From an uncultured Hungatella sp. (GTDB lineage: Bacteria; Bacillota; Clostridia; Lachnospirales; Lachnospiraceae): a stretch of 40,003 nucleotides of DNA. The stretch lies in NCBI GenBank assembly GCA_947066955.1, contig CAMTAF010000024.1:1-40003 (forward strand), in the 5' to 3' direction. Below are positions 1 through 27,870 of the stretch, one piece after another (within the stretch, counting starts at the first letter, position 1; every line of letters begins with the position of its first letter). Below the pieces are notes generated by a model. It worked only from the letters and a program-made list of their open reading frames with translations. It had not been told where the DNA came from and searched no databases. A program made the translations under genes and the position numbers.

Positions 1-46
1 GCCCCAGCGCAGCGAGTAGGGGGAAGGCCTCCCCTACTCGATTGCA
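1..46. repeat. Dispersed palindromic repeat, family A (partial copy A1)
   Basis: The window opens inside a hairpin with arms gcgagtaggggg and cccctactcg followed by attgc. The same right-hand module recurs at 2350-2385, 4483-4516 and 4568-4600, and diverged at 10082-10115. It ends only a few bases beyond the stop codon of the helicase gene. Only the right half of the element is inside the window. Confidence 0.7.
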
Positions 47-2171: not shown

Positions 2172-2418
2172 TAACAGGATAGCAAAAAAATGACAAAAGT
2201 ACTAGACTTTAATTCCCAGGTATGATATGCTGTGTAATGTAGTAGTGCCTGAAATTGGGAACCATGTTTTCGAACGTGCGTTCCCTTACTTTTTATGCGC
2301 AGGCCTGCGCAGTGGAAGTTTGCCGCTAAAGCGGCGCACGGGCCGCGAGGCGAGTAGGGGAAAAGGCCTCCCCTTCTCGATTGCGTTTTATCATTTACAG
2401 AAGGGAGCGGTATTGATC
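2172..2418. other. Divergent intergenic region with repeat A2
   Basis: This gap separates helD (minus) from the dehydrogenase (plus). Its left 110 bases are AT-rich and should hold both promoters; a TATGAT at 2221-2226 could be a plus-strand -10 box but no good -35 box sits upstream of it. The rest is occupied by palindromic repeat A2 (2291-2385). Open frames crossing this gap in both directions are translations of the repeat and are not credible genes. Confidence 0.5.
2291..2385. repeat. Dispersed palindromic repeat, family A (copy A2)
   Basis: Full-length copy of about 95 bp. Module 1 is an imperfect inverted repeat around a core hairpin gccgc-taaa-gcggc. Module 2 is gcgagtagggg paired with a cccct.ctcg arm, ending attgc. 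The copy closely matches A4 (4514-4600). It lies directly upstream of the dehydrogenase start and would be transcribed as its leader if the promoter lies at the left of the gap. Confidence 0.75.
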
Positions 2419-4420: not shown

Positions 4421-4516
4421 TTTTTATGCGCACGGGCCCCAAGAGGAAATTTGCCAGCAAAAGCTGGCCGGGGCCCGGCGCGGCGAGTAGGGGGAAGACC
4501 TCCCCTACTCGATTGC
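4421..4516. repeat. Dispersed palindromic repeat, family A (copy A3, tandem with A4)
   Basis: Full copy in the araC-rhaB divergent region. Its core hairpin is gccagc-aaaa-gctggc instead of gccgc-taaa-gcggc as in A2 and A4, so both arms changed together. Outer arms gcacgggcccc and ggggcccg pair as well. The gcgagtaggggg/cccctactcgattgc module follows. A4 follows directly. Confidence 0.75.
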
Positions 4517-4600
4517 ACAGGCCCGTGCAGTAGAAGTTTGCCGCTAAAGCGGCGCACGGGCCGCGCGGCGAGTAGGGGAAAGAATTCTCTGCTCGATTGC
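4514..4600. repeat. Dispersed palindromic repeat, family A (copy A4)
   Basis: The second copy follows A3 head-to-tail in the same orientation. The left module is nearly identical to A2, with outer arms gcccgtgc and gcacgggc around gccgc-taaa-gcggc. The right module is diverged (gcgagtagggg / ctctgctcgattgc). With A3 it fills about 180 of the 328 bp between the regulator and rhaB. Confidence 0.75.
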
Positions 4601-7812: not shown

Positions 7813-7896
7813 GGAGGAAGGCAAACGCGTAAGCGTTTCTAGGATGCCTTCCGACGAGTTGGCAGGTGGCGCTTGCGCCGCGTGCCGATACCAATT
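7811..7896. repeat. Two-hairpin repeat, family B (copy B1)
   Basis: An 86-bp element between rhaA and rhaD. Hairpin 1 has outer arms ggaaggc and gccttcc and inner arms aaacgc and gcgttt. Hairpin 2 has ggca/tgcc outer and ggcgc-tt-gcgcc inner arms. A second copy at 13236-13321 matches across the full length. The element overlaps the rhaA stop codon. In the transcript it would be a double stem-loop between two operon genes, which might affect mRNA stability. Confidence 0.65.
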
Positions 7897-9624: not shown

Positions 9625-10866
9625 TCACGATGGCGTCTCCTGGCGCAGTTCTCCCTGATACCATCCACACACACCGTTCTTTTTCACAAAATACCCCCGG
9701 GACGTCTGTTCCATTAGGGACAGCAGGTCCCCGGTCTCCACGGGAAGCCGGTAATCTGTGAAGCCAGTACAGACTAACCGGTCGCCCTGGTTATAGATCA
9801 AGCTGCTGAGAACCTCCAGTTTCCGGCCGCTGTCCACATGCTCCACCAGGGAGAATTCCTTCCCCTCCTCCAACAGGCGGATCGTTCCGTTAAGAAAGTG
9901 GAGACTGATGGGGTCCGCGGAGGCCTTCTGAGAGGACATGGCCCGGAATAAGGGGAGCTGGTCACAGGAGATAAAAGAGATTTCGCTGATATCTTGGCAG
10001 GTCAGCGCGCTGACGGGCGGCGGCATGATAGGCGCACGGGGCGGATAAGAAATGTGGCCGCCTGCGCAGCCCCACTCCGGCGCAGCGAGCAAGGGGTCCC
10101 TCCCCTCCTCGATTCCTGGAATGATCACCAGATTCAGCTGTCCCCCGCGGGAGAGACCGCAGCCCCCGTCTATAGAGATAATCCTCTGGCGGCGGTTAAT
10201 AATAGGATTGTGCTGGAGGATCCTGTCATTGTAAACATTTACAGGCCAATGGCCCGCCACAATATATTTTTCAAAACAAAGCCCTGCTCCCATAAAGTTG
10301 TCCAACTTGAGAACCTGCCGCCGATCCCTGCCCTTTAGAGACTCGAGATCCTCTGTGGGAAGTCCGCCGTGGACAAAGATATAATTCCTGGTCTCAAGAA
10401 TGTCAGGGAGGCTCCGAAGAAAATCCCACTCCTTTTGAAAATTTTCCAGAAGAGGCGCTTTGAGAGACAGAGCCTTTGAGGGGGAATCCATATCAACTCC
10501 CAGTTCAGCCGCCATATCCTCAAAAATGCTGGATCCCCACCGCCTGTGGGCCATACAGCAATATTCGTAAAACTTCTCGCAGGTGTCTTTGCTCAGGGAT
10601 TCCACCATCTGCATCCGCAAAAGATCCACATTTCCCATAATCACTTCCACATTGCGCCTTTTGGCAAGTTCCATGACATAGCGGAGGGAAGCGAGATTGT
10701 CGGGCCCCTTCTCAATCAAATCCCCCAATATAAAGAGCATGTCGTCATCAGAAAATCCTGCCTGGTCCAGGAGATTCTCAAGCAGCGCTCCGTGCCCGTG
10801 GATATCGCTGGTCACCAGGATGCGGTGTCCATTTGGCACATCAATTGGCTTTATAGAAATCGGCAT
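9625..10866 (-). CDS. Calcineurin-like metallophosphatase with a palindromic repeat inside the reading frame
   Basis: A 413-residue serine/threonine-phosphatase-like metallophosphoesterase. Metal-binding motifs are ordered as SDIHGHG (about residues 20-26), LGDLIEKGPDN, GNVD (the usual GNHD with Val for His), FVHGGLPT and AGHWPVN, followed by SIDGGCGLSRGGQLN. Right after this final strand, residues of about 251-279 are encoded by a diverged copy of repeat A (10031-10115). The frame stays open and the normal C-terminus continues. ATG 10866 is preceded by AAAGGAC and a near-consensus promoter (10906-10934). The physiological substrate is unknown; dinucleotide polyphosphate hydrolases and protein phosphatases share these motifs. 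The Val in GNVD may modify metal or substrate handling. Confidence 0.82.
   Translation of the reverse strand: MPISIKPIDVPNGHRILVTSDIHGHGALLENLLDQAGFSDDDMLFILGDLIEKGPDNLASLRYVMELAKRRNVEVIMGNVDLLRMQMVESLSKDTCEKFYEYCCMAHRRWGSSIFEDMAAELGVDMDSPSKALSLKAPLLENFQKEWDFLRSLPDILETRNYIFVHGGLPTEDLESLKGRDRRQVLKLDNFMGAGLCFEKYIVAGHWPVNVYNDRILQHNPIINRRQRIISIDGGCGLSRGGQLNLVIIPGIEEGRDPLLAAPEWGCAGGHISYPPRAPIMPPPVSALTCQDISEISFISCDQLPLFRAMSSQKASADPISLHFLNGTIRLLEEGKEFSLVEHVDSGRKLEVLSSLIYNQGDRLVCTGFTDYRLPVETGDLLSLMEQTSRGYFVKKNGVCGWYQGELRQETPS
10031..10115. repeat. Dispersed palindromic repeat, family A (copy A5), inside a coding region
   Basis: Diverged copy, recognisable by ggcgcacgggg at the left, a central part with ggccgcctgcgc, and a right module cgcagcgagcaagggg / cccctcctcgattcc. 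It has the same orientation and order of modules as A3. It lies within the calcineurin-like phosphatase gene and is read in frame without a stop. Confidence 0.6.
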
Positions 10867-13249: not shown

Positions 13250-13321
13250 ACGCGCAGCGTTTTTAGGATGCCTTCCTCCGACTTGGCAGGTGCCGCGGGG
13301 CGGCGCGTGCCGTTACTGATT
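13236..13321. repeat. Two-hairpin repeat, family B (copy B2)
   Basis: Matches B1 along its length: gaggaggaagg, aaacgc/gcgttt, aggatgccttcc, then ttggcaggtg and a second hairpin gccgc-gggg-cggc. Hairpin 2 arms differ from those of B1 but remain complementary. It overlaps the last codons and stop of the upstream gene, as B1 does at rhaA. Confidence 0.65.
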
Positions 13322-20257: not shown

Positions 20258-21958
20258 TTACTGCGGATGCGCCGCGATAATCCTCGCGCTCTCAGCCGCG
20301 ATGCCCTCAGGAGTCACATTGGGATCAGTGGGATCCCAGGTCTGCTCGAAGGGAATCTCATAAGCGATGGTGGGACGCTCAAAGGGTCCCGGTATGGAGC
20401 TGTTGTACACAGTCACCGTGGTGCCCAGAGGGCAGTTGTCAAAGATCCACTTGGAGTCCGCGGTGGTCAGGCGGATACAGCCTGCGGACCGGGCGATTCC
20501 AAGATTGTTGTAGGTGCTGGCCCACACGGTGTATGGGTCGGGCGCGTCGTAGATGATGGAATGCATCAGGATGGAAAGCCCGGATCCAAGGCGTGTGGCG
20601 TACTGGGTGTACAGGTCATGGATCATCAGGCGCCAGCGGTATTTCTCCGGTGTGCGGAAGGTGCCGATGGGCGTGTCGTCGCCGGTGGAGACCAGGAAGG
20701 ACTTGACAGGAACAATAAATCCGTTGTCTCCGTCGGAGGTGTAGATGGTCAGGCAGTCCATCTGCTTGTTGATCTTGATCTGGAAAGGCCCTCCGGTGCC
20801 GATGATGGGCTCAATGTCCGTGAACAGCTTTCCGTCCTCGCCGAAATAGTACTTGTATCCGTCGATGTACTGCCATCCGGTTACGGGGTAGGAGTCTACG
20901 AAATAGTAGCGGTCATTGCCCAGCCATCCCCATCCGGTGAAGTTGGAGCCGTCGCCGTGGATGTAGCGCATGGCGCCGTCTATGTACTGGATCCCGTCGG
21001 GATGAGCGGATACCACAGGGTTCTCAAAGCTTACGTCAGGGGTGTCCCCTTTGCGGAAGAACGCCAGGCGGTAGCCGGTGATATAGAGCCCGGCGTTCAT
21101 GGTGCCGCAGGTCTCGCCGTTCTTGGCCCATCCGGTCTGCTCGCCGTTGCTTAATGTGGTTGTATAGTAGATGTCGTAGTCATTGTTCACAGGCCCGGCA
21201 AAGCGGCACTGGATGGCCTCCACTGGGGCGAAATCTGCCGGGATGTTGGTCTGCTGGCCGTTCATCACCCACAGGCTCCAGCCGTTGGAGGTGGAGTAGG
21301 TGCGGTAGAGGAAATTGCCGTGGATATTCTCCAGGAATGTGGAGATGGAGTAGAAGGGACGTCCGTCTACGGTGATCCACTGGTCATTGACAAATGCCTG
21401 AGACCACTGGTGGGCGTCGGCCAGCAGGATAGTGGTCTGCAGTCTGGGGGATCTTAATGGCACGGTGAGGATGTTGGGAACTTCCTCTTCCTGGGGAGGC
21501 TGCTCTTCCCCAGTGGAAGTGCCTTCTCCCGCGGTCACGTCTTCTCCTGTGGAAGTGCCTTCTCCCGCAGTTGTCCCTTCTCCTGTGGAGGCGCCGTCTC
21601 CAGTGGTTGTCCCCTCGCCAGCGGCGGCATCCCCGGTTCCGGTGCCTTCTGTGCCGGTGCCCTCCTGTTCAGGAGCCGTGGTTTCCTCTGAGGGAGCTGT
21701 CTCCCCCGGTCCGGCAGGTCCTGTCTGGGAGGAGCCGGTGGTATCTGTTGAGGGATCTTGTCCCTGGGTATCCTGGTCAGGGTCTATGGGGTGGAGCTGG
21801 TCAGACGAGTCTGGCGGTGTCTCCTGTACGGCAGGGTTCAGTGCCGGGTCAAAGGCGGGACCAAAGTCCTCCGGCGCGGCGAAAGCGTTCAAGATGCTTC
21901 CGGCTGTCATGGCCGCGGTGAGGAAGAAAGTCAGTCCCAATTTTTTGTATTTATGCAT
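20258..21958 (-). CDS. Secreted L,D-transpeptidase with wall-binding repeats
   Basis: A 566-residue exported protein. A Lys-rich start and hydrophobic core end in NAFA|AP, a signal peptidase I site near residue 28. Residues about 30-160 are an acidic Thr/Gly/Glu/Pro-rich linker with repeats of the GEGTSTGE type. W/Y-rich glucan/choline-binding-like repeats (GWGWLGNDRYYFV, GWQYIDGYKYYFGEDG) lie around 325-385. The YkuD domain (about 400-520) has HSIIYDAP and SAGCIRLT with the catalytic Cys near 494; Ala replaces the His seen in the common SHGC form. The enzyme would make 3-3 cross-links in peptidoglycan or anchor polymers. AGGAGG precedes the ATG. It is divergent from the GT2 gene at 22108. 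Confidence 0.9.
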   Translation of the reverse strand: MHKYKKLGLTFFLTAAMTAGSILNAFAAPEDFGPAFDPALNPAVQETPPDSSDQLHPIDPDQDTQGQDPSTDTTGSSQTGPAGPGETAPSEETTAPEQEGTGTEGTGTGDAAAGEGTTTGDGASTGEGTTAGEGTSTGEDVTAGEGTSTGEEQPPQEEEVPNILTVPLRSPRLQTTILLADAHQWSQAFVNDQWITVDGRPFYSISTFLENIHGNFLYRTYSTSNGWSLWVMNGQQTNIPADFAPVEAIQCRFAGPVNNDYDIYYTTTLSNGEQTGWAKNGETCGTMNAGLYITGYRLAFFRKGDTPDVSFENPVVSAHPDGIQYIDGAMRYIHGDGSNFTGWGWLGNDRYYFVDSYPVTGWQYIDGYKYYFGEDGKLFTDIEPIIGTGGPFQIKINKQMDCLTIYTSDGDNGFIVPVKSFLVSTGDDTPIGTFRTPEKYRWRLMIHDLYTQYATRLGSGLSILMHSIIYDAPDPYTVWASTYNNLGIARSAGCIRLTTADSKWIFDNCPLGTTVTVYNSSIPGPFERPTIAYEIPFEQTWDPTDPNVTPEGIAAESARIIAAHPQ

Positions 21959-26858: not shown

Positions 26859-27540
26859 GAAGGTGCTGGTGGTCATACCAGCTTACAATGAGGAAGTCAA
26901 CATAGAGGCAGTTGTGGGGGAGCTGGAGCGGGACTATCCGGAGCTGGACTATATTGTGGTCAACGACGGCTCCCGGGACCGGACGGCCTCCATCTGCCGG
27001 GAGCAGGGGTATGAGCTTTTAGATCTTCCGGTGAACTTAGGGCTTGCGGGGTGCTTTCAGACAGGCATGAAGTACGCTTATTTAAAAGGATACGGATACG
27101 CCATCCAGTTTGACGGCGACGGCCAGCACCGCCCGGAGTACATCGGGGCCATGAGGGAGAAGATGGACGAGGGGTACGATATGGTCATAGGGAGCCGGTT
27201 TGTCCAGGGCAAAAAGGATCTGTCCCCCCGGATGATCGGCAGCAGGCTCATAGCCGGAGCCATTTTCCTCACAACAGGGGTCAGGGTTAAGGATCCCACT
27301 TCCGGGATGCGGATGTTCAACAGAAAGATGATCAAAGAGTTTGCCCTGAACTTAAATTACGGCCCGGAGCCGGACACGGTGTCCTACCTGCTGAAGCAGG
27401 GGGCTAAGGTGGCGGAGGTTCCGGTGAAGATCGGGGAGAGAACCGGAGGAGAGAGTTATCTGAAGCCCATGGTGGCGGCCCGGTATATGGCCAGGATGCT
27501 CATCTCCATCCTGCTCATCCAGAATTTCAGGAAGCGCTGA
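26845..27540 (+). CDS. GT2 glycosyltransferase, dolichyl-phosphate mannose synthase-like
   Basis: A 231-residue single-domain GT2 enzyme: VIPAYNEEVNIEAVV, VVNDGSRDRT (about residues 36-45), and FDGDGQHRPEYI (about 90) with the DxD. The family transfers a sugar from a nucleotide donor to polyprenyl phosphate or another lipid carrier; lacking C-terminal membrane segments it resembles DPM1-type enzymes. The start is uncertain: GTG 26845 has GGGAAGGG five bases upstream and overlaps the aminotransferase gene by 14 bp; GTG 26830 and 26839 are alternatives. Its last codons, encoding NFRKR, are part of the first unit of the tandem repeat that follows. Confidence 0.85.
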   Translation: MERSEKVLVVIPAYNEEVNIEAVVGELERDYPELDYIVVNDGSRDRTASICREQGYELLDLPVNLGLAGCFQTGMKYAYLKGYGYAIQFDGDGQHRPEYIGAMREKMDEGYDMVIGSRFVQGKKDLSPRMIGSRLIAGAIFLTTGVRVKDPTSGMRMFNRKMIKEFALNLNYGPEPDTVSYLLKQGAKVAEVPVKIGERTGGESYLKPMVAARYMARMLISILLIQNFRKR

Positions 27541-27870
27541 CCAGCGTGCGCCCGGCAGGTGACGTGCTGCCGTACGGGACGGACAGGCGGGCGCGGCATA
27601 CCGGAATCTCAGGAAGCGCTGACCAGTGCGCCCGGCGGGTGACGTGCTGCCGTACGGGACGGACAGGCGGGGCGGCATACCGGAACCTCAGGAAGCGCTG
27701 ACCTGCGCGCCCGGCGGGTGACATGCTGCCATACGGGACGGACAGGCGGGGCGGCATACCGGAATCTCAGAAAGCGACAGCGTGGGCGCGCCTGGCAGGC
27801 GGCGTATTGCCGCCCGGGACCGACGGGCTTGGCATATGAGAAGTCAGATCGCCTGGGGCGACGGACCTGC
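27530..27870. repeat. Tandem array of about four 79-82 bp hairpin units (family C, copy C2)
   Basis: Units start at 27530, 27612, 27691 and 27770, each with ggaagcgctgacc (diverged in unit four), a gcgcccggc...gcgggcgc type inverted repeat, and ggcataccggaat. Units two and three are nearly identical; unit four is diverged and runs on into agatcgcctggggcgac, the tail seen in C1 and C3. The first unit begins inside the 3' end of the glycosyltransferase gene. No gene is seen in the 353 bp before 27894. Spacer length and sequence similarity rule out a CRISPR array. Confidence 0.85.

Follow-up and report, generated by a model that had tools for sequence, protein, structure and literature searches.

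Two dispersed repeat families within the reading frame of a phosphatase gene from an uncultured Hungatella sp.

The closest described systems are the Rickettsia palindromic elements (RPE; Ogata et al. 2000, reviewed in PMC2229807 and PMC10969869), nearly half of which are located in open reading frames. Gmk, one tested RPE-carrying enzyme, is still active (PMC10969869, PMC2229807), and a 2024 review considered the same process conceivable in other prokaryotes (PMC10969869). Intragenic REPs in several species add 20 to 30 residues (Di Nocera et al. 2013, PMC3733652), and in-frame ORF fusions are known for ERIC, NEMIS/Correia, YPAL and QMITE (Coxiella) (PMC2229807, PMC5896051). A text search of PMC3733652 revealed no mention of Firmicutes or Clostridia, and a small search of open-access papers found no earlier report of such a case from Clostridia.

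We analyzed a stretch of 40,003 nucleotides (the window) from one uncultured Hungatella genome, an assembly of 240 contigs with 92% completeness. A preliminary description of the window placed a diverged copy of the palindromic repeat family A at 10031-10115, inside a calcineurin-like phosphatase gene, and these limits were right within a few bases (Table 1). Family membership was confirmed in two ways. BLAST with the genic stretch against its own genome gave 45 matches, the best of which reached an E value of 3e-18, with identities of 81-83% along 83-88 nt. When a covariance model was made from 20 other copies, with the genic copy left out, it scored the genic copy at 70.9 bits (E 5e-12). The genic copy has 83 nt against 86 nt in the consensus and differs by a 3-nt deletion and 12 substitutions.

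Table 1. Coordinates of the insert, its host gene and the family A copies in the window.
Feature	Position	Strand	Evidence
Calcineurin-like metallophosphoesterase gene (PPP/ApaH-like), 413 aa, host of the insertion	9625..10866	-	ORF, Pfam PF00149, fold match
Segment absent from orthologues, codons 251-291	9994..10116	-	codon alignment, 40 orthologues, pLDDT
Family E fragment, 34 nt, beside the A element	9997..10030	+	31/34 nt equal to E consensus
Family A copy, antisense to the phosphatase gene, in frame	10032..10114	+	BLAST, covariance model
Family A copy, truncated by contig end, intergenic	1..43	+	
Family A copy, variant loop, intergenic, behind CTTTTTAT	2297..2382	+	
Family A copy, variant loop, intergenic, behind CTTTTTAT	4428..4514	+	
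Family A copy, variant loop, in tandem with the 4428..4514 copy	4515..4598	+	

The insert is a composite of two unrelated repeat families, A and E, which was recognized only in the present follow-up. Codons 251-291 comprise 123 nt, of which the two parts, separated by 1 nt, cover 118. When the genome was searched with the 60 nt adjoining the A element, we found a match at C83 with 89% identity over 36 nt (E 8e-7), together with similar matches. About 29 extra residues had been proposed; an in-frame insert does exist, but it is longer because the E fragment adjoins A, and the net gain in the window gene is 37 codons (111 nt), with 41 codons at the site against 4 in the closest relative. An exact-pattern search found the direct order E then A nowhere else and thus gave no donor for a composite block, and no target-site duplication was recognised at the genic site.

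The host gene matched PF00149 with an E value of 8e-14 and its fold matched lambda Ser/Thr phosphatase (1g5b); among proteins of solved structure, this phosphatase and ApaH-type enzymes are the nearest relatives. The reading frame is kept, as the preliminary description held: the 413 codons contain no internal stop, residues 292-407 align with the orthologues in the same frame, and the part downstream of the insert keeps 53% identity to the orthologue of the closest relative. The metal-site residues D21, H23, D49, N79, H166 and H206 are invariant, and the metal-site motifs are intact. In an AlphaFold2 model from 16 sequences, the mean pLDDT was 86.7 and the blocks outside the insert were mostly above 90, with residues 256-290 the sole stretch below 50 and modelled as disordered. 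This stretch, a predicted surface loop, lies between beta strand 244-249 of the catalytic domain and strand 297-301. The insert had been described as standing immediately after the last conserved strand; it does follow the conserved strand 244-249, but not at the end of the fold, since strand 297-301 and then the conserved C-terminal part come after it. The phosphatase with its insert is predicted to stay folded and catalytically competent.

The family A DNA in the gene shows clear signs of having left the constraint seen in the intergenic copies. The hairpins of A covary strongly, with 252 double-changed cells in 118 copies against 54.6 (sd 5.6) in shuffles; slid controls gave no more than 57. 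Two intergenic copies gave folding z values of -3.4 to -6.1 over both strands, while the genic copy gave only -1.1 and -1.3, so that the strong fold is lost. The genic copy is also the most diverged of 21 aligned copies, with substitutions at 12 of 83 positions (14%) compared with 2 to 10 of about 86. In the frame used by the gene, the consensus of A carries a TAG stop where the genic copy has GAG; TAG stands there in 13 of 20 intergenic copies and CAG in the other seven. Apart from the lost codon, ten codons of the genic A part are changed, eight nonsynonymously and two synonymously, therefore no sign of selection on the new residues, or of their usefulness, is visible. The inserted residues thus look free to drift within a frame that has been maintained, and they are most likely a neutral loop.

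We consider it highly probable that a rare, tolerated in-frame insertion of A and an E fragment became a loop of the phosphatase. A copy of A and a fragment of E, both intergenic families, would have come to sit antisense in this loop, either by two successive insertions or as one block by illegitimate recombination. The insertion may have been tolerated through a permissive loop and the few stops in the repeats; the hairpin constraint would then have been lost, and the DNA would have drifted as a coding linker. The main alternative is that the phosphatase is a decaying pseudogene, still open by chance, in which the insert is neutral debris and not a tolerated loop. The excess of nonsynonymous changes, with no conservation signal at the amino-acid level in the insert, would agree with decay, and the relative G005 keeps only a 186-aa fragment of the gene, which means that the gene can be lost. 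However, the frame is open over its whole length with intact metal-site motifs, the identity to the closest relative is maintained behind the insert, and a confident fold is modelled on both sides. The copy is further from the consensus than the intergenic ones, and yet its deletion is in frame and no stop has arisen. Decay is thus an improbable reading.

The orthologue comparison agreed with the expectation that the segment should be missing elsewhere. Codons 251-291 were absent in all 40 aligned orthologues, including the distant ones of Holdemania and Faecalicoccus, and a comparison across 397 genomes of the family found the inserted peptide in its own genome only, the 396 others lacking it. 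The closest relative, the Hungatella sp. MAG G001 (L010/L070), has a phosphatase with 56% identity; in the codon alignment it shows IIPEIDCDIDRIS at the site where the window gene shows IIPGIEE...LTCQDISEIS, and in the longer readings ...LIIPEIDCDIDRISHVSCD corresponds to ...VIIPGIEEGRDPLLAAPEWGCAGGHISYPPRAPIMPPPVSALTCQDISEISFISCD of the window. In G010 (L011) and G016 (L012), the same loop was lengthened independently with low-complexity sequence (GRIAGAERIAGAGRIAG...), therefore the insertion site is considered permissive. The L012 orthologue has a serine/glutamine/asparagine-rich stretch elsewhere too.

Two other origins of the segment were weighed against the insertion of A and E. The first is that the segment is ancestral and was lost in the other lineages, the repeat family having arisen from the phosphatase gene. 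We found nothing in favor of it, the direction of change resting on parsimony; the absence from all 40 orthologues speaks against it, and the genic copy, with its high divergence and weakened hairpins, is the reverse of what a source would be, so this origin is very unlikely. Equally small is the probability that replication slippage in the coding DNA lengthened the loop, as in G010 and G016, with the repeat match secondary. This loop is indeed prone to changes in length, but no periodicity is visible in the peptide and nearly the whole segment matches two dispersed repeat families, by which slippage is refuted for the window gene.

The match to A was also compared with what the encoded protein would give. 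When residues 251-291 were shuffled 3000 times among synonymous codons, with the encoded protein kept, the A-score had a mean of 27.6 (sd 4.7) and a maximum of 43, while the real segment scored 55; the 3874 background stretches of the window reached at most 18. Since the real score exceeds both, the DNA match to A is not a by-product of protein sequence or base composition, which answers the scramble test suggested in the preliminary description. For E the match was weaker, with a score of 28 against a maximum of 27 in 3000 synonymous shuffles. Chance similarity, that is, a GC-rich linker resembling a repeat that is itself GC-rich like the gene, can be dismissed as practically nil, being refuted by the shuffle test; the genome-wide E value, the background stretches and the adjoining 34 nt that match a second family also speak against it.

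Family A has at least 149 matches in its own genome by the covariance model; the true number is probably higher because only 150 candidates were scored. The model gave five matches in G001 and 15 in G005; most of the other genomes in the genus had none. A run of at least four T within 14 nt before the element was found at 74 of 92 sites, against a background of 6.8%. The 36 nt before the T-run had a mean folding energy of -15.5 kcal/mol compared with -6.9 kcal/mol after shuffling (73 sites tested), and in 58 of the 73 cases the stretch exceeded nearly all its own shuffles in stability. From these T-runs and the stable hairpins before them, family A sits behind intrinsic terminators, and the A copies that follow T-tracts are mostly behind terminators. 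The T-tracts directly before A elements read CTTTTTAT/GT. The genic copy, unlike most A copies, is not behind a terminator, and it either came by another route or missed the usual target. Tandem arrays (window 4428-4598; L049, L051, L163 and L179) consist of alternating A units with different first-hairpin loops, and the second half CGAGTAGGGG...CCCCTACTCGATT is common to all of them.

A search for other A copies within genes had been proposed. Among the 92 sites examined with flanks, only the phosphatase copy lies deep in a conserved ORF. The count took in open frames of 180 codons or more in which the element had a minimum of 40 codons to either side, and it would miss insertions near gene ends or gene-breaking ones. 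Eight other A sites inside open frames of 180 codons or more were rejected as genic copies. Those of L183 and L200 have a Pfam hit, with the domain wholly downstream of the A element; the remaining frames around A sites have no family match, and an apparent 478-aa frame at C35 is broken by the stop of the element and looks non-coding. Family A is not a gene coloniser.

Family E, with the consensus GGAAGTGCGCTGAGGCGCACGCAGGTCAGCGCCCTGACGGGCGGTGACATGATATAATA, has at least 54 matches in the same genome, many of them in tandem arrays that repeat every 59 nt, and none of the 40 listed copies is deep in a conserved ORF. E usually lies 7-80 nt upstream of a start codon on the same strand, for example in L104 (1510-1568), L065 (1490-1548) and L127 (1501-1559). 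The sequence TGATATAAT within the consensus resembles an extended -10 box, and family E may be a promoter-carrying repeat. Other repeats were also observed in the window. The repeat AGCGTTTnTAGGATGCCTTCC...TTGGCAGGTG occurs at 7832-7872 and 13256-13296, 88% identical and just upstream of genes; three tandem repeats of 79-80 nt are present at 27510-27747, with identities of 61 and 92% to the reference copy; and tandem 18-nt DNA repeats are located at 21504-21629.

Concerning the mobiliser of family A, no match to the RAYT domain (Y1_Tnp, PF01797) was found in the 92% complete genome, while control genomes were positive, and RAYT was ruled out on this ground. The genome has two RVT_1 genes, but the flanks examined around them have no A element and no Rfam intron matched, so a reverse transcriptase or group II intron as the terminator-targeting agent received no support. 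Rfam gave zero matches for the window or for ten repeat loci. As a tentative proposal, to which we give slightly less than an even chance, A would be a covarying hairpin element, not described before, that belongs to Lachnospiraceae and inserts immediately behind intrinsic terminators by a non-RAYT mechanism. In one lineage it would have expanded to some 150 copies or more and, with the family E that lies close to start codons, would occasionally make new protein sequence.

The findings support the earlier interpretation that a nucleic-acid repeat has made new protein sequence in Clostridia. The Rickettsia-type process, in which selfish or structural DNA repeats turn into protein, is now seen in one case in a gut-type Clostridium, with two unrelated families combined and clear signs that the hairpin constraint has given way to drift as coding sequence. 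The analysis also brought out a large, strongly covarying repeat family associated with terminators, for which no mobiliser is known.

Compared with the known systems, the window gene has dispersed-repeat DNA in a conserved ORF, absent from the orthologues and with the frame kept on both sides, and family A is a structured nucleic-acid element, its hairpins carrying compensatory changes. As in the RPE, a small structured repeat is translated in frame in a conserved gene and lengthens the protein by a few tens of residues without destroying it. The RPE differ in host phylum, in length (105-146 bp vs 83 nt here) and in frequency, nearly half of them being in ORFs compared with one of 92 sites for family A; and the present insert joins two repeat families. 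Of the likeness to RPE that had been suggested, the in-frame translated repeat at a tolerant site stood, and membership and frequency did not. Family A resembles the GTAG/CGTC REPs in being a mostly intergenic palindrome, predominantly downstream of genes and occasionally genic, where 20-30-residue inserts result, but the GTAG REPs are linked to RAYT tyrosine transposases, and the Y1_Tnp domain of these was not found in this genome. With ERIC, NEMIS/Correia, YPAL and QMITE it shares a MITE-like, mainly intergenic occurrence and sometimes in-frame fusion; its internal hairpins are strong. It differs from them in its position behind intrinsic terminators, and no terminal inverted repeats or target-site duplication were shown for it. 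By the features tested, the family A copy works like an RPE insertion, and is itself neither an RPE nor a RAYT-linked REP.
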